Shown piece after piece: positions 2,384-13,995 of a DNA stretch of 15,724 nt; within the stretch, counting starts at the first letter, position 1; each line of letters begins with the position of its first letter. Source of the stretch: Paludibacteraceae bacterium (lineage in GTDB: Bacteria; Bacteroidota; Bacteroidia; Bacteroidales; Paludibacteraceae); the NCBI GenBank assembly GCA_947445425.1, contig CANFFA010000012.1:1-15724 (forward strand). Reading direction: 5' to 3'. A program made the translations under genes and the position numbers. The notes under the pieces are model-generated. The model did not search any database. It was not told the origin of the DNA and saw only the letters and a list, made by a program, of their open reading frames with translations.

Positions 2384-2439
2384 GTGCAAGATTTCGAACA
2401 ATCAATTACATGGGATTGTTTATTTCTAAAATACAAACA

Positions 2440-3387
2440 ATGAAATCAAAAATCAGTTTTAAGCTCATAGTGCTTCTCTTAATTTTAAGTCAGAGTGCTT
2501 GTAATCAAACGCATACAAAAACAAATACAATTACAACAATGAAATACAATAGTCTAACACCAGAAGAACAGTATGTAATATTAAACAAAGGCACTGAACG
2601 TCCCTTTACAGGAGAGTATGTAAACACCAAATCAACAGGCACCTATGTCTGTAGACAATGCGATGCACCACTTTACAATTCTAAAGACAAGTTTGAATCA
2701 CATTGTGGTTGGCCAAGTTTTGATGATGAAATAGCAGGTGCCGTTAGACATTTACCGGACGCCGATGGAAGTAGAACAGAAATTGTTTGTAACAGATGTG
2801 GTGGTCATTTAGGCCATGTATTTACAGGAGAAGGATATACAAAAAAAGACACAAGACATTGTGTTAATTCTATCTCTATAAAGTTTATCCCAAGTAAAGA
2901 AGCGGTAGTAGAAAAAGCCTATTTTGCTTCTGGTTGCTTCTGGGGAACAGAATACCATTTCATGAAAGCCAAGGGGGTACTAAAAACTGCAGTGGGTTAT
3001 ATGGGTGGAAAAACGGAAAATCCAACGTATAGACAAGTATGTACTGGTGAAACGGGTCATGCAGAAGCGACAGCAGTAGAATTTGACCCGACAAAAACAA
3101 CTTATGAGGAGATGGTGAAACTATTTTTCGAAACACATGATTTCACACAAGTAAATGGTCAAGGTCCAGACATCGGTAATCAGTACCGATCAGTCATTTT
3201 TTACACTTCTGAAGAACAAAAAACAATTGCCGAAAAGTACTTTTCCATTTTAGCACAAAAGGGCTTCAAGGTAGCCACACATTTGGAGAGAGCACCCATT
3301 TTTTGGAAAGCTGAGGATTATCATCAAGCTTATTACAATAAGAAAAATGGATCTCCTTATTGTCATATATACCGTAAAATCTTCTGA
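2440..3387 (+). CDS. bifunctional methionine sulfoxide reductase lipoprotein (MsrB-MsrA fusion)
   Basis: Repairs both R- and S-methionine sulfoxide. Numbering is from the ATG at 2440 (315 aa). Residues 1-20 form a lipoprotein signal ending SQSA before Cys21. MsrB comes first (about 38-150): zinc ligands CRQC (71/74) and CNRC (117/120), likely resolving Cys89 in CGWPSF, and catalytic Cys141 in HCVNS. MsrA follows (about 158-315): catalytic Cys166 in GCFWG, the GYMGG loop, and a late Cys308. I chose 2440 over the in-frame ATG at 2410 because it gives a clean signal peptide with an A-rich leader. A third ATG at 2539 would give a cytosolic form. The likely location is the periplasmic face of a membrane, for repair of envelope proteins. 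B-before-A is one of the two known fusion orders. The catalytic call is strong; the anchoring rests on the relaxed lipobox. Confidence 0.92.
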   Translation: MKSKISFKLIVLLLILSQSACNQTHTKTNTITTMKYNSLTPEEQYVILNKGTERPFTGEYVNTKSTGTYVCRQCDAPLYNSKDKFESHCGWPSFDDEIAGAVRHLPDADGSRTEIVCNRCGGHLGHVFTGEGYTKKDTRHCVNSISIKFIPSKEAVVEKAYFASGCFWGTEYHFMKAKGVLKTAVGYMGGKTENPTYRQVCTGETGHAEATAVEFDPTKTTYEEMVKLFFETHDFTQVNGQGPDIGNQYRSVIFYTSEEQKTIAEKYFSILAQKGFKVATHLERAPIFWKAEDYHQAYYNKKNGSPYCHIYRKIF

Positions 3388-3481: not shown

Positions 3482-4354
3482 TTACTTACTGACAGCAGCC
3501 ACCTTAAACCCTGCTTTTTGTAACAATTTCACCACCCCCTTATCACCACCTAAATGCAATGCTCCAACAGCAATAAAACAGCCTGAGGCTTGCATTTGGG
3601 CAGGTAATTTATTCAACCATTCCGCATTTCTATCATCCACAATCTTGGTATATTCTGCTTCAGTAAGCTGAGAAAAATCTCCTGATTTTTTAGCATGCAA
3701 CACCATCTCATCAATTGCACCAGTCCTATAAAGTTTGTTGAGATGCAGCATTTCATTTAAAGCAGTCTCCTTTTGATTTATAGAGGCCACCAATAAATTG
3801 GCTTGCCTTTGAAGCGTTCCATTCTCAAACAGTAAAGCAATTTGTTGCTGAATGGTTTCAAGACCAAGCATTTTCTTACCCTTTTCACTTCCTACCAATT
3901 GAAAATAAGAATCTGATTTTATATCATCCGAAAAGCCTGTCAATTGTTTGTATATCTCCATCTCATACAATGTAAGTATCAAAGACGGATTTAAGATGGA
4001 TAAATCACTTAAGCCCATTTTCAAAACCCTCTTTAACTCTGCATCTACCAACTGATAATCCTGCTCATCCAACAAATCCTTCATTTTAATATGATTGGGC
4101 ATAACAGCAGCCTTTTGCATTGTTGCAGTAGCATCCAAATCACTCAGAATCATCTCACCAATAATCATTTCGCTAGCATTGAAAGCTTTGTACAAACCAG
4201 GTACGCTATCTAAAAAAGAAATCGGTATTAGATGATGTGTTCCAAACAAATAAGAAGGCTGCTTCAAACCATTTCCAGAAATTCGCCACAAGAGTTGAGC
4301 CATTGCGGGATACGCTATAAGAGCTAAAATCAGTATAAAGAGGGATTTTTTCAT
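3482..4354 (-). CDS. TraB/GumN family protein, secreted
   Basis: A 290-aa protein from the ATG at 4354. The frame can be extended to a TTG at 4396, but that would overlap the preceding stop and spoil the signal peptide. Residues 1-20 (MKKSLFILI... ending AMAQ) look like a Sec signal. The family landmarks are YLFGTHHL (35-42), GLET followed by QQQ (164-171), the DRNAEW segment (241-246) and VGALHLGGDKG near the end (263-273). TraB/GumN proteins share a fold related to the Tiki/erythromycin-esterase-like metalloprotease group, with conserved GxxH and late H motifs. A periplasmic hydrolase is possible but unproven for this branch. It follows the nitrilase gene by 38 nt, probably in one operon. 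Family call good, function open. Confidence 0.8.
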   Translation of the reverse strand: MKKSLFILILALIAYPAMAQLLWRISGNGLKQPSYLFGTHHLIPISFLDSVPGLYKAFNASEMIIGEMILSDLDATATMQKAAVMPNHIKMKDLLDEQDYQLVDAELKRVLKMGLSDLSILNPSLILTLYEMEIYKQLTGFSDDIKSDSYFQLVGSEKGKKMLGLETIQQQIALLFENGTLQRQANLLVASINQKETALNEMLHLNKLYRTGAIDEMVLHAKKSGDFSQLTEAEYTKIVDDRNAEWLNKLPAQMQASGCFIAVGALHLGGDKGVVKLLQKAGFKVAAVSK

Positions 4355-4362
4355 GCTTAAAT

Positions 4363-4391
4363 TAATATGCCAATTAAATAATATGCCAATT
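4363..4391. repeat. 13-nt direct repeat between the nitrilase and TraB-like genes
   Basis: TAATATGCCAATT occurs exactly twice, at 4363-4375 and 4379-4391, with a 16-nt period. It fills most of the 38-nt intercistronic gap upstream of the TraB-like start. It could be a small duplication or a paired binding site; no function can be assigned. Confidence 0.6.
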
Positions 4392-4392
4392 T

Positions 4393-5166
4393 TCAAATCT
4401 TCAAATCAAACGCATCAGCATCTTTCCATACTGAAAATTTTGAACGATAGTGTTCTAATTTTTCAATTGAAAGTTCAGCAGTTTGAAGATCCGTTTCATT
4501 TTCAGAAAAAGTAACTAACTCTTTCGCTTGAGCATCGAGCATTATAGAATGACCTGAATAATGAATATCAGCCCCATCTACCCCCACCCTATTGACACCA
4601 CAAACATAGACCTGATTTTCCAAAGCACGAGCCTTAAGAAGTATATCCCAATCTGCAATTCGTCGATGTGGAAAATTGGCCACACAAATCAACAAATCAT
4701 AGGCATTGTTCACATTGCGGGTCCAAACTGGGAAACGAATATCGTAACAGACTATCACCCGAATCTTAAAACCTTTATAATTGACCAACAAAGACTTATC
4801 ACCGGCCGTAAAGAGTTTATCCTCACCACCCAAACTAAAAAGATGCCGTTTATCAGCAGTTTGGACCTCCCCAGTTGGGAAAACAAAAAAGCTACGGTTA
4901 TAAATCTTATTTTGCTCAGTAGCAATAAAACTTCCAGTAATGGCCAATTGATATTGTATCGCCCAAAGCTTTAACTGCATCACTGTCTCACCCTCTATCG
5001 TTTCAGCCAGATCCAATTGATCAGTACAAAAGCCAGTAGTAAACATTTCAGGCAATACAACTAAATCTGTCAATCCTGCCAAAGATTTTAGATGCCTACC
5101 AAACTTTTCTATATTCGCAGCCTTATCGGCCCATGTTATGCTTTCTTGAACAAGGCTAATTCGCAT
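4393..5166 (-). CDS. carbon-nitrogen hydrolase, YafV/Nit2-like omega-amidase
   Basis: This 257-aa nitrilase-superfamily enzyme has the full Glu-Lys-Cys triad: Glu40 in LPEMFTTGF, Lys106 in DKRHLFSLGGE and Cys140 in VCYDIRFP. It also has the downstream RALENQVYV segment (180-188) and GHSIMLD (205-211). The LPEMFTTGF and CYDIRFPVW versions are typical of the YafV/NIT2 omega-amidases, which hydrolyse 2-oxoglutaramate or 2-oxosuccinamate to the 2-oxo acid and ammonia in the cytosol as metabolite repair. Length is normal for the family and there is no signal peptide. It is first in a minus-strand pair with the TraB-like gene. A candidate promoter with a CAAAAATA (-7 on the minus strand) lies at 5255-5262. 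Superfamily certain, exact substrate inferred from motif resemblance. Confidence 0.88.
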   Translation of the reverse strand: MRISLVQESITWADKAANIEKFGRHLKSLAGLTDLVVLPEMFTTGFCTDQLDLAETIEGETVMQLKLWAIQYQLAITGSFIATEQNKIYNRSFFVFPTGEVQTADKRHLFSLGGEDKLFTAGDKSLLVNYKGFKIRVIVCYDIRFPVWTRNVNNAYDLLICVANFPHRRIADWDILLKARALENQVYVCGVNRVGVDGADIHYSGHSIMLDAQAKELVTFSENETDLQTAELSIEKLEHYRSKFSVWKDADAFDLKI

Positions 5167-12122: not shown

Positions 12123-12161
12123 AAAAAAGAGAGCTTCTGCATGTTGAAGCTCTCTTTTTTT
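12123..12161. terminator. bidirectional terminator between the CoA-transferase gene and the Cys-rich gene cluster
   Basis: GAGAGCTTC (12129-12137) and GAAGCTCTC (12146-12154) form a perfect 9-bp stem with an 8-nt loop, flanked by A6 and T7. It therefore works in both directions: it ends the CoA-transferase mRNA on the plus strand and the 68-aa Cys-rich protein's mRNA on the minus strand. Confidence 0.9.
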
Positions 12162-12190: not shown

Positions 12191-12397
12191 TTACTCTGCC
12201 ACACTATCTCTAGTGCATTGAGTGGCTGGCATTACAGATGATTTACAGGATTCCATTTCCGGCATACAGCAATGCTGCATTGTGTGACAGGGCTGACAAG
12301 ATTTATTAAAACGTGTTGACCCTAGGGTTCCATACAGTGCTCCAAAAGTTAGTGCCGCAGCAACTAGTCCTACTAAAAAATTTCCTTTTCTTGACAT
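12191..12397 (-). CDS. small Cys/His-rich membrane-anchored protein with CxxCHxxxHCC
   Basis: A 68-aa protein I cannot assign to a named family. The N-terminus MSRKGNFLVGLVAAALTFGA resembles the YtxH-type start and gives one membrane span (about residues 7-25) that could be a signal anchor with the tail outside. The tail holds Cys34, Cys37, His38, His42, Cys43, Cys44, Cys51 and Cys61, arranged as CQPCHTMQHCC followed by two single Cys, plus four Met. CQPCH formally equals a c-type heme attachment motif, but the protein is far smaller than known cytochromes, so metal or redox thiol chemistry is as likely. It is the last gene of a minus-strand pair, 83 nt after the four-CC-pair protein, and ends at the bidirectional terminator. 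ATG start with an AT-rich leader. Confidence 0.65.
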   Translation of the reverse strand: MSRKGNFLVGLVAAALTFGALYGTLGSTRFNKSCQPCHTMQHCCMPEMESCKSSVMPATQCTRDSVAE

Positions 12398-12480
12398 CGT
12401 GATGATTATTTATCGATTATCTTATATACTTTTTAAAAATTGAAAATACATCTGCAATCAGTCATGCAGACGAATACAGC

Positions 12481-12750
12481 TCAACAGCAGTTGGATTTTG
12501 AGCTACAACAGCCTTTTGTTTTTGATGCTACAAATTCAGCATATTCAGCATCACTCATGGATCGGATTTTATCCATCATTTCGAGCTTACGATCCCTACC
12601 TCCGCAACAGCTATATCTACTGCAACAAGACTTCAGTAGTTTCATTACCAAGCCAAAAACAAAGATTCCCACTAGTAATTTTGGCATAAAAAAAGCCACA
12701 GTCCCAAACAGCACTCCCACCAGTACGGACTTAAAAATTGATTTTGTCAT
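12481..12750 (-). CDS. small membrane protein with four CC pairs
   Basis: An 89-aa protein, family not recognised. Residues 6-38 are hydrophobic with a central Pro-Lys and probably form a two-helix hairpin, leaving both ends cytoplasmic by the positive-inside rule. The polar part carries CCx4CC (42-49), a basic linker, the segment KIRSMSDAEYAEF (61-73) and a terminal CCx5CC (81-89): eight Cys in four adjacent pairs and none elsewhere. The KIRSMSDAEYAEF segment resembles KLMEMSDDEKQKF of the neighbouring 109-aa protein, which also ends in CC. It is first in its own unit, preceded by a promoter element shared with the sigma gene (12800-12829). The overlapping plus-strand frame is the low-complexity shadow of this gene. 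Thiol-based metal binding or redox sensing is inference. Confidence 0.7.
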   Translation of the reverse strand: MTKSIFKSVLVGVLFGTVAFFMPKLLVGIFVFGLVMKLLKSCCSRYSCCGGRDRKLEMMDKIRSMSDAEYAEFVASKTKGCCSSKSNCC

Positions 12751-12799
12751 TTTCGTTTAAATTGAATTATTAATCTTAATTTGTTTCTTTATATTGTGG

Positions 12800-12829
12800 T
12801 AGACGCACCATAATGAAAACTACTTTAAA
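12800..12829 (-). promoter_or_regulatory. candidate ECF-sigma promoter driving the Cys-rich pair
   Basis: Read on the minus strand it is GTTTAAAGTA, 15 nt, then CGTCTA, followed by a predicted leader of about 43 nt to the ATG at 12750. CGTCTA is a common -10 hexamer of ECF promoters. The same two blocks at the same spacing occur upstream of the ECF sigma gene (13912-13941). No TAnnTTTG element is present here. Confidence 0.6.
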
Positions 12830-12896
12830 CAAAAGCGCATTTTAACAAAAACACACACAAGCATTTCACTGCCAAATAATTACGCCATAATACAAA

Positions 12897-12945
12897 CAAA
12901 AAAAAACTTGACTTTTCTGACGAAAAACGTCAAAAGAGTCAAGTT
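12897..12945 (-). terminator. terminator after the sigma factor/109-aa protein unit
   Basis: An 18-bp stem (12905-12922 with 12928-12945; one G-U, one mismatch) with a 5-nt loop. On the minus strand it runs into eight T (plus 12897-12904). It separates the sigma-factor unit from the downstream Cys-rich pair. On the plus strand only CTTTTTG follows, so the main direction is minus. Confidence 0.85.
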
Positions 12946-12967
12946 CTTTTTGTTTGTGGATAAAAGC

Positions 12968-13297
12968 TTATTTACAGCATCTATTTTTCCAGATATTCTT
13001 AAACTTTTGTTTTTCGTCATCACTCATCTCCATCAGTTTTTCTTTGAAGTCTTGATGATCTTGATGTCCTACATGCTCAAAGTGTTTTCTATAACTCCAA
13101 CCGCCAAATAGAATACGAGACAAAAGTAGTAAACCCATTGCCTGCCAATAAGTGATGAGTGGTAAATCGAAAATCATTGGAAGGAGATGATTCCACAAAA
13201 GCATAACAACAGCACTTAATACAAAAAGTCCAATAAAGAGCAAAGGGATGAAAAAACATTTATGTCTTTTGCAATAGTTTTGATTTTCTGTTTCCAT
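12968..13297 (-). CDS. small His/Cys-rich membrane protein co-transcribed with the ECF sigma factor
   Basis: A 109-aa protein without an assigned family name, though I have a memory of similar proteins next to Bacteroidota ECF sigma genes (LPLITYWQAMGLLLLSRILFGG core). It has two spans (about 15-36 and 47-65), placing both termini in the cytoplasm. The N-terminus has CKRHKC (9-14). After the second span comes a His ladder, His72-x2-His75-x2-His78-x2-His81, then KLMEMSDDEKQKF (87-99) and a terminal CC (107-108). It starts 31 nt after the sigma gene stop, so it is almost certainly co-transcribed and occupies the place where an anti-sigma factor would normally sit. It has no zinc anti-sigma HxxxCxxC motif. 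A sigma-regulating or metal-sensing role is inference from position and residues. Confidence 0.72.
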   Translation of the reverse strand: METENQNYCKRHKCFFIPLLFIGLFVLSAVVMLLWNHLLPMIFDLPLITYWQAMGLLLLSRILFGGWSYRKHFEHVGHQDHQDFKEKLMEMSDDEKQKFKNIWKNRCCK

Positions 13298-13328
13298 AAT
13301 ATAAATTATTGATTGAGTTTAAATTCAT

Positions 13329-13904
13329 TTAATGATTGAGTTCTTCGTAAAGATAGTTCAATCTTTTACGCAAGTGTTTTACTGCATAACCTTTACGGCT
13401 GATGATGGTTTTTAAATTTTCACCACTTTGATCAGCAATTTGTTGTAATGTCATATCTTCCATTTCATTGAGTAGAAATACCTCCTTTTGGGCAGGCGGT
13501 AGCTCTTCTAAAGCATTTTGAAATTCAGTCCAAAAGAGTTCTTTAAAAAAACCTAACTCAGGATTTTGACTATCATCTAATAACAATACTTCTTTGAAAT
13601 TAAATACTCCATCATCACTTTCGTAAGTAAAATCTTCTAATGCAGCACTCTTTTTTTTTCGGGATTTATCAATGATTTTATTTCTCGCTACTTCGTATAG
13701 CCAACCACTTACATTTTCTAGTTCGGCAATATTATTCAATTTAGTAAGCTGATACCAAACATCTTGCAGAATATCTTCTGCATCCTCGGTCGACTTTACT
13801 TTCCCCCGCACAAAACCAAACAGATTCTGACTGAATTGCTGTATCGTTTTGGAGATGGAAAGCGCCTTTTGATCACTCATTGAAAGATTATATGTTGTCT
13901 CCAT
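13329..13904 (-). CDS. ECF RNA polymerase sigma factor (sigma-70 family)
   Basis: A 191-aa protein with region 2 (about 22-85: DAEDILQDVW at 41-50, WLYEVARNKIID at 68-79) and region 4 (about 126-185: LPPAQKEVFLL at 135-145, then the helix-turn-helix around MTLQQIADQSGENLKTIISRKG). There is no region 3 or SnoaL-like extension, so it is a classic small ECF factor that should recruit RNA polymerase to CGTC-type promoters. Such an element lies at 13912-13941. Its -10 is only 7 nt from the ATG at 13904, so the mRNA would be leaderless if that start is used. The in-frame ATG at 13880 (MSDQKALSISK, 183 aa) would leave a leader of about 25 nt and may be the true start. No conventional anti-sigma gene follows. 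Confidence 0.9.
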   Translation of the reverse strand: METTYNLSMSDQKALSISKTIQQFSQNLFGFVRGKVKSTEDAEDILQDVWYQLTKLNNIAELENVSGWLYEVARNKIIDKSRKKKSAALEDFTYESDDGVFNFKEVLLLDDSQNPELGFFKELFWTEFQNALEELPPAQKEVFLLNEMEDMTLQQIADQSGENLKTIISRKGYAVKHLRKRLNYLYEELNH

Positions 13905-13911
13905 ATTTTTG

Positions 13912-13941
13912 AAGACGCAGTGTGGAAAATTTTACTTTAAA
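13912..13941 (-). promoter_or_regulatory. candidate autoregulatory ECF promoter of the sigma factor gene
   Basis: Read on the minus strand it is TTTAAAGTA, 15 nt, then CGTCTT. It matches the element at 12800-12829 in both blocks and in exact spacing. The intervening 15 nt are mostly different, so the match is not a simple duplication. This suggests the sigma factor recognises its own promoter. Confidence 0.6.
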
Positions 13942-13951
13942 ATATTCGAAA

Positions 13952-13995
13952 TAATATAAAAGAAATCCGTTACAACTCTAATTGCAACGGATTTC
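13952..13995 (-). terminator. terminator after the MmcQ/YjbR-family gene
   Basis: A perfect 10-bp stem (13962-13971 with 13986-13995), extended by an inner CAA/TTG pairing past one mismatch, reads into TTTTATATTATTT on the minus strand. It insulates the sigma-factor promoter from the upstream gene. Confidence 0.75.

Follow-up and report, generated by a model that had tools for sequence, protein, structure and literature searches.

P109, a candidate small membrane anti-sigma factor in an ECF sigma module of Bacteroidota

RpoE of Escherichia coli is an envelope-stress ECF sigma factor under the membrane anti-sigma factor RseA, which belongs to class I; domains of this class are helical bundles in the cytoplasm with a mean length of about 101 residues (PMC8103513, PMC7406223; all sources are cited here from excerpts of their text). 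Class I anti-sigma factors adjoin only 6% of the ECF sigma factors of Bacteroidetes, compared with 32% over all phyla, and the survey that reported this left open whether other anti-sigma classes rule in Bacteroidetes (PMC7406223). Class II is represented by CnrY, which acts on CnrH in Cupriavidus metallidurans and whose domain consists of two helices clasped around the outside of sigma regions 2 and 4 (PMC4598750, PMC8103513), and RsbN, the partner of BldN, is a membrane-anchored anti-sigma factor of class III, outside classes I and II (PMC8103513). In Bacteroides and Phocaeicola, the pairs Reo-EcfO and Dma-Das use non-class-I membrane anti-sigma factors in envelope stress (PMC13114119, PMC13088901), and CirYZ-Spy of Phocaeicola vulgatus is a self-activating ECF pair co-transcribed with a chaperone gene (PMC13114119).

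Here we describe an ECF sigma gene and three small genes, those of P109, P89 and P68, in 15,724 nucleotides of a Paludibacteraceae genome (the window; its source assembly comprises 381 contigs and is 76% complete). With a probability of roughly 0.6, we read them as a self-contained ECF module in which P109 is a small membrane anti-sigma factor that answers membrane or envelope stress. P109 would resemble class II in kind: CnrY, as described in the excerpts, is a membrane protein with a very short cytoplasmic two-helix segment that controls an ECF sigma factor, a segment of this kind is predicted with low confidence in P109, and both modules have small membrane-protein neighbors and a link to efflux (PMC4598750, PMC8103513). 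In contrast to CnrY, the P109 hairpin is C-terminal, after two predicted spans, and matches no solved structure in sequence. The best hit of the P109 profile among PDB sequences was a glycine receptor (E 0.12), with no sequence relation to a solved class II member, and the P109 module has no CnrX-type metal sensor. The likeness to Reo-EcfO and Dma-Das is that of a Bacteroidota ECF sigma factor with an unusual membrane anti-sigma factor, in our case a candidate. However, Reo and Dma span the inner and the outer membrane, whereas P109, with 109 residues and two predicted inner-membrane spans, has no room for an outer-membrane domain and does not belong to a type that reaches from the cytoplasm to the outer membrane. 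As in CirYZ-Spy, a chaperone gene is linked to the module, here in part of the loci, and self-activation is likely; compared by description, the chaperone is periplasmic Spy there and Hsp20 here. RsbN and P109 are both membrane-anchored and outside class I, and we saw no sequence link between them.

Gene order and transcription units

An earlier note on this DNA had described an ECF sigma gene followed on the same strand by three short membrane-protein genes. The four ORFs are indeed found in the window ORF list at 12191..13904, all on the minus strand (Table 1). The sigma factor matches Sigma70 r2 and r4_2 above the Pfam cut-offs and the NCBIfam sigma70-ECF superfamily with 72.1 bits (cut-off 42.9), and it consists of Sigma70 regions 2 and 4 only in about 190 residues, as an ECF sigma factor does. 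None of P109, P89 and P68 matched a Pfam or NCBIfam model above cut-off, and the flanking genes, identified by the same libraries as YjbR (upstream) and CoA transferase (downstream), do not encode anti-sigma factors. This agrees with the earlier statement that no conventional anti-sigma factor is present, and no characterized family in Pfam, NCBIfam or PDB covers the three small proteins.

The four genes had been presented as one set. They are present as described, but they form two transcription units, because the P109 and P89 genes are separated by a terminator, a hairpin followed by U residues (-27.5 kcal/mol, z -6.0 by folding), and a second copy of the promoter lies ahead of P89. Within the window, the element TTAAAGTA-N15-CGTC was found ahead of the sigma gene and ahead of P89, and none was found before P109 or P68. 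The three small proteins contain four (P109), eight (P89) and six (P68) cysteines. Elsewhere in the window we observed a C-terminal MG10 domain of a bacterial alpha-2-macroglobulin (17-670), a fused methionine sulfoxide reductase with a SelR domain followed by a PMSR domain and, by eye, a lipoprotein-like N terminus (2410-3387), and a TraB/PrgY/GumN family protein (3482-4396).

Table 1. Features of the ECF sigma module and its borders in the window
Feature	Position	Strand	Basis or remark
Terminator-like hairpin of the upstream yjbR gene, parting yjbR from the sigma operon	13962..13995	minus	
Promoter of the sigma operon (strongly supported), TTAAAGTA-N15-CGTC	13914..13940	minus	5' end 34-36 nt ahead of the sigma start
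ECF sigma factor, 191 aa	13329..13904	minus	Pfam and NCBIfam matches above cut-off
P109, 109 aa, candidate anti-sigma factor; predicted two-span protein with cytoplasmic C-terminal hairpin	12968..13297	minus	
Intrinsic terminator closing the sigma-P109 unit	12905..12947 (about)	minus	Sequence and fold energy
Second sigma-type promoter, ahead of P89	12802..12828	minus	Pattern match
P89, 89 aa: hydrophobic N-terminal half, P109-like C-terminal hairpin, then Cys-rich tail	12481..12750	minus	
P68, 68 aa: single membrane span and Cys/His-rich C-terminal tail	12191..12397	minus	
Terminator-like hairpin behind P68, between it and the CoA transferase gene, which is convergent	12123..12160	minus	

P109, its hairpin and its linkage to the sigma factor

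A search of about 5.8 billion proteins returned 284 relatives of P109, 120 of them listed. In an alignment of 121 sequences, the proteins share a conserved core (VMLLWN ... WQA.GL..L.RILFG) and a conserved C-terminal motif (M.M.DEER..FK..WK.RC); the consensus of the hairpin is M-S-D-E-E-x3-F-K-x2-W-K-x-R-C. Basic residues outnumber acidic ones in the N-terminal stretch of 112 of the 121 proteins (K/R mean 3.7) and in the C-terminal stretch of all 121, and the loop is poor in K/R (mean 0.26). Because of these K/R-rich termini and the K/R-poor loop, both ends are predicted to be cytoplasmic, with two membrane spans between them. In a structure model of low confidence (mean pLDDT 68.8, pTM 0.29), helices were placed at residues 10-42, 50-64, 82-90 and 93-107, the last two with a local pLDDT of about 74-86.

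The predicted cytoplasmic parts of P109 comprise 12.3 residues on average at the N terminus and about 50, linker included, at the C terminus. P109 does not fit class I (including the zinc type, Hx3Cx2C), which has a cytoplasmic helical bundle of about 100 residues; the mean of about 101 for the class I domain compares with about 12 at the N terminus of P109 (PMC8103513, PMC7406223). No anti-sigma model was among the Pfam matches of the 121 members at E 0.01, and none matched the window P109 in NCBIfam. None of the open-access text searched describes P109, P89 or the promoter.

The C-terminal part of P89 matched P109 in a profile comparison with a probability of 97.5% over 59 columns (97.1% with a 30-row alignment). 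The score was 70.7, compared with 30.2 for the best of 60 column-shuffled controls, and the soluble halves alone scored 45.8 versus 14.0 in controls. Judged from these profiles, the C-terminal hairpin of P89 is homologous to that of P109. The tail of P68 is probably periplasmic, as suggested by its basic N terminus. P68 scored 12.2 bits (E 0.22) against FeoB_associated (PF12669), below the cut-off of 27, and we do not assign it to that family.

We then asked how constantly P109 accompanies an ECF sigma gene. In the relatives, an ECF sigma gene adjoins P109 in 23/23 places (20 of 100 relatives, the genome of the window included), and in named genomes in 76/80 loci, a subset kept of 566 that encode a relative; one of the other four loci begins at a contig start and three have no sigma gene nearby. 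Among 395 genomes of the phylum, 58 of the 60 P109 places found (E 0.001 or better) adjoin an ECF sigma gene, 53 of them a gene of the window's sigma clade and five a more distant one. The two places without a sigma gene are weak matches, one at E 1e-4 inside a 504-aa frame and one at E 8e-4. The sigma gene comes first in 132 of 142 pairs (135 distinct) and P109 in 10. These linkage counts, like the promoter counts below, come from loci related by descent and are not independent. Both genes are absent from the 10 P109-less relatives checked, except for a sigma remnant in one, and the neighbor clusters of 79 loci contained no other recurrent regulator candidate adjoining the sigma gene. The co-transcribed 109-aa protein, which the earlier note had picked as the most likely regulator, is thus the best candidate for that role. 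The neighborhood comparison that the earlier note had asked for did not refute a link between the small genes and this sigma clade: P109 follows the clade through the phylum, and P89 and P68 do so in a narrower set; sigma, P109, P89 and P68 are complete and in order in 10 of the 23 places.

The clade itself was delimited by a score gap in the 395 phylum genomes, where at least 85 sigma factors scored 102 bits or more against that of the window and the next scored 69 bits. The best 11 or best 8 candidates per genome were scored, and these counts are of genes found. P109 accompanies 35/35 clade sigma factors found in the window's class. Outside it, where at least 50 were found, P109 was recognized by profile beside 18 of 50, and for 12 of the remaining 32 the next gene encodes a membrane protein that matches weakly. 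No P109-like neighbor was found at 20 of the 85, all outside the window's class, and there the sigma factor can therefore do without P109.

Several loci depart from the common form. In three genomes of one family (L207, L213, L217), a clade sigma gene lacks P109 and has a PIG-L-type deacetylase gene behind it, named by Pfam for L207 and L213. At L018, the sigma factor behind P109 is in two separate pieces of 138 and 52 aa. At L308 and L353 (G046), an intact promoter element precedes what is left of the sigma gene, which encodes about 70 residues and then has a stop, and P109 was not found in that genome. One module (L061) is in a bin titled Thermoanaerobaculia, outside Bacteroidota, for which misbinning and transfer are both possible.

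A shared promoter element and candidate targets

The element was searched as AAAGTA-N15/16-CGTC at the 125 distinct pairs with the sigma gene first (the 10 with P109 first were left out), in 200 nt ahead of the sigma gene, including its first 30 nt, and in 450 nt behind P109; loci with too short flanks were omitted, leaving 123 and 122. It was present ahead of the sigma gene in 75/123 loci, compared with one for the reversed pattern and none on the opposite strand. Behind P109 it was present in 54/122, and both controls gave none. The base 5' of AAAGTA, which the pattern leaves free, was T in 75/75 and 54/54 cases. In this searched form the element is missing ahead of the sigma gene in 48/123 loci. 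At L220, in another class, a clade sigma gene without P109 has the element ahead of it and ahead of an Hsp20 gene directly behind it; the element therefore goes with the sigma factor and not with P109. The identity of TTAAAGTA-N15-CGTC as a promoter is strongly supported. We infer that the sigma factor recognizes it, and the evidence fits self-activation, in line with the general point of the earlier note that ECF factors usually have a membrane regulator as partner and drive their own operon.

In the 13 genomes whose module is of the close type, TTAAAGTA-N15-CGTC occurs at 35 sites, 23 of them inside the module, and in the other 87 of the 100 relatives at 26 sites (hand counts). Of the 12 sites outside it, three are ahead of TolC genes, each in a different genome. 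One of these genomes is that of the window, and in the remaining two the TolC gene is followed by genes for a membrane-fusion-type protein and an RND pump. One site lies ahead of rsfS-ftsH (G022), one ahead of a gene for a membrane phosphatase (best NCBIfam model LpxG, far below cut-off) and one (G000:C335) ahead of an ORF whose start resembles an outer-membrane receptor. Two sites, both in G005, are inside genes, and one (G015:C1:2976811) has its spacer in common with sites of module-less genomes. The last three are at G005:C53, G038:C1:583683 and G061:C14. With looser patterns, genome-wide counts did not exceed those of reversed controls, and single unlinked sites may therefore be due to chance.

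Other genes are tied to the module by position or by the element. In 15 of 79 neighborhoods there is an Hsp20 gene downstream, and one genome has an unlinked operon of a small membrane protein and an Hsp20-like protein (named from sequence likeness) behind two tandem sites, one of them without the constant T. In a single genus, four genomes (L210, L212, L219, L223) have an MscL gene directly behind the sigma gene and its divergent P109-like neighbor, and lpxD is preceded by the element in one genome. A survey of 27 rsfS loci, of which 3 were unplaceable and in which ftsH was identified by eye, found the element ahead of rsfS-ftsH in 3 of 24 readable genomes; one site has a mismatch, and in another genome (G018) the site is perfect, yet neither a clade sigma factor nor P109 was detected. 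Because the genes tied by operon or promoter are those for Hsp20, MscL, TolC with multidrug-type RND pumps, FtsH and LpxD, we propose a role in membrane or envelope stress.

Two further groups of sites were rejected as regulon members: those ahead of an MsbA-like ABC transporter gene in five genomes lack the constant T, and those that fall within a birA-like gene preceding rsfS-ftsH, in five genomes of the Chryseobacterium-like group, can be explained by the coding sequence. A short protein encoded between P68-like and Hsp20 genes (L285:2867-3247, L286:2690-3073) resembles the N-terminal part of macrolide-type glycosyltransferases (L285, NCBIfam MGT 62.9 bits, below cut-off).

A proposed membrane switch and its alternatives

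P109 is probably the off-switch of the sigma factor, a candidate that no family library searched names; linkage, topology and promoter logic suggest that it binds the sigma factor and lowers its activity. In the proposed mechanism, the sigma factor would read TTAAAGTA-N15-CGTC and activate both its own operon and the P89-P68 unit. The cytoplasmic helical hairpin of P109 would tether the sigma factor to the membrane. When the membrane or envelope is disturbed, the highly conserved membrane part of P109 would change and the sigma factor would be set free. The freed sigma factor would raise P89 and P68 and, in other species, Hsp20, MscL, TolC/RND efflux, FtsH and LpxD. P89 would provide a second, induced hairpin binding site and may reset the switch.

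The earlier note had favored thiol stress, copper or zinc handling. In such a module, C107 of P109, the cysteines of P89 and the Cys/His tail of P68 would bind metal or be oxidized, the sigma factor would be released and its regulon would export or buffer the toxicant. Position 107 is Cys in 115 of 121 P109 homologues, at least three His lie between span 2 and the hairpin in 75 of 121, the C termini of divergent P109-like proteins have motifs of the CGC or CC type, P68 tails contain 13-29% Cys plus His in 21/21 distinct relatives detected, and TolC genes are preceded by the element. However, the Cys-rich tail of P89 occurs in closer relatives only and is not kept further out (21-row alignment), four P109-type partners of one family (L184-L187) have no terminal Cys motif, and Hsp20, MscL, FtsH and LpxD are not metal genes. 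In both element-linked RND pumps, multidrug models score far above CusA/CzcA models, all below cut-off. Thus, of the Cys/His clusters noted in all three small proteins, those at C107 and in the P68 tail are conserved and that of P89 is specific to a lineage, and with the tied genes indicating membrane or envelope stress, metal or thiol handling is unlikely as the main role. Metal or redox may nevertheless provide an input, through the P68 tail and C107.

It is somewhat less likely again that P109 helps the sigma factor or serves as its effector, be it as a membrane anchor, a positive co-factor or a target that needs co-production. The 20 of 85 clade sigma factors that manage without it would fit such a role, as would the hairpin of P89, whose gene lies behind a separate promoter with no sigma gene beside it, so that the hairpin may have a different ligand, for example Hsp20 or a lipid. 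The near-obligate pairing in both gene orders argues against it, as does the lack of a recurrent rival regulator candidate by the sigma gene in the 79 loci. Very improbable is an old inherited operon without functional coupling, the true regulator being elsewhere. The correlation of the distance matrices of sigma factor and P109 (r 0.77) is what common descent by itself would produce, and residue coevolution is weak: with 135 pairs (effective number 79), the true pairing was slightly above within-cluster shuffles in all three P109 regions, 2, 7 and 9 of 200 shuffles reached the observed value, and the hairpin was not special, so no interface could be placed. Yet the linkage survives across classes, sequence divergence and changes of gene order, and sigma factor and P109 are jointly absent as described above.

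Beyond the anti-sigma reading of P109 itself, we tentatively propose, at somewhat less than even odds, that a new miniature anti-sigma domain, a C-terminal cytoplasmic hairpin on a two-span membrane anchor, is present in P109 and P89 and governs a phylum-wide ECF clade, with P89 as a sigma-induced copy that resets or re-tunes the switch. Such a membrane-stress system of Bacteroidota would fill the role of RpoE with unrelated parts. The P109 module provides a concrete anti-sigma candidate for one ECF clade of Bacteroidota, together with a promoter of defined sequence and a few likely targets. If the hairpin is the part that binds the sigma factor, few anti-sigma domains would be smaller, and a set of hypothetical proteins across Bacteroidota would be explained.
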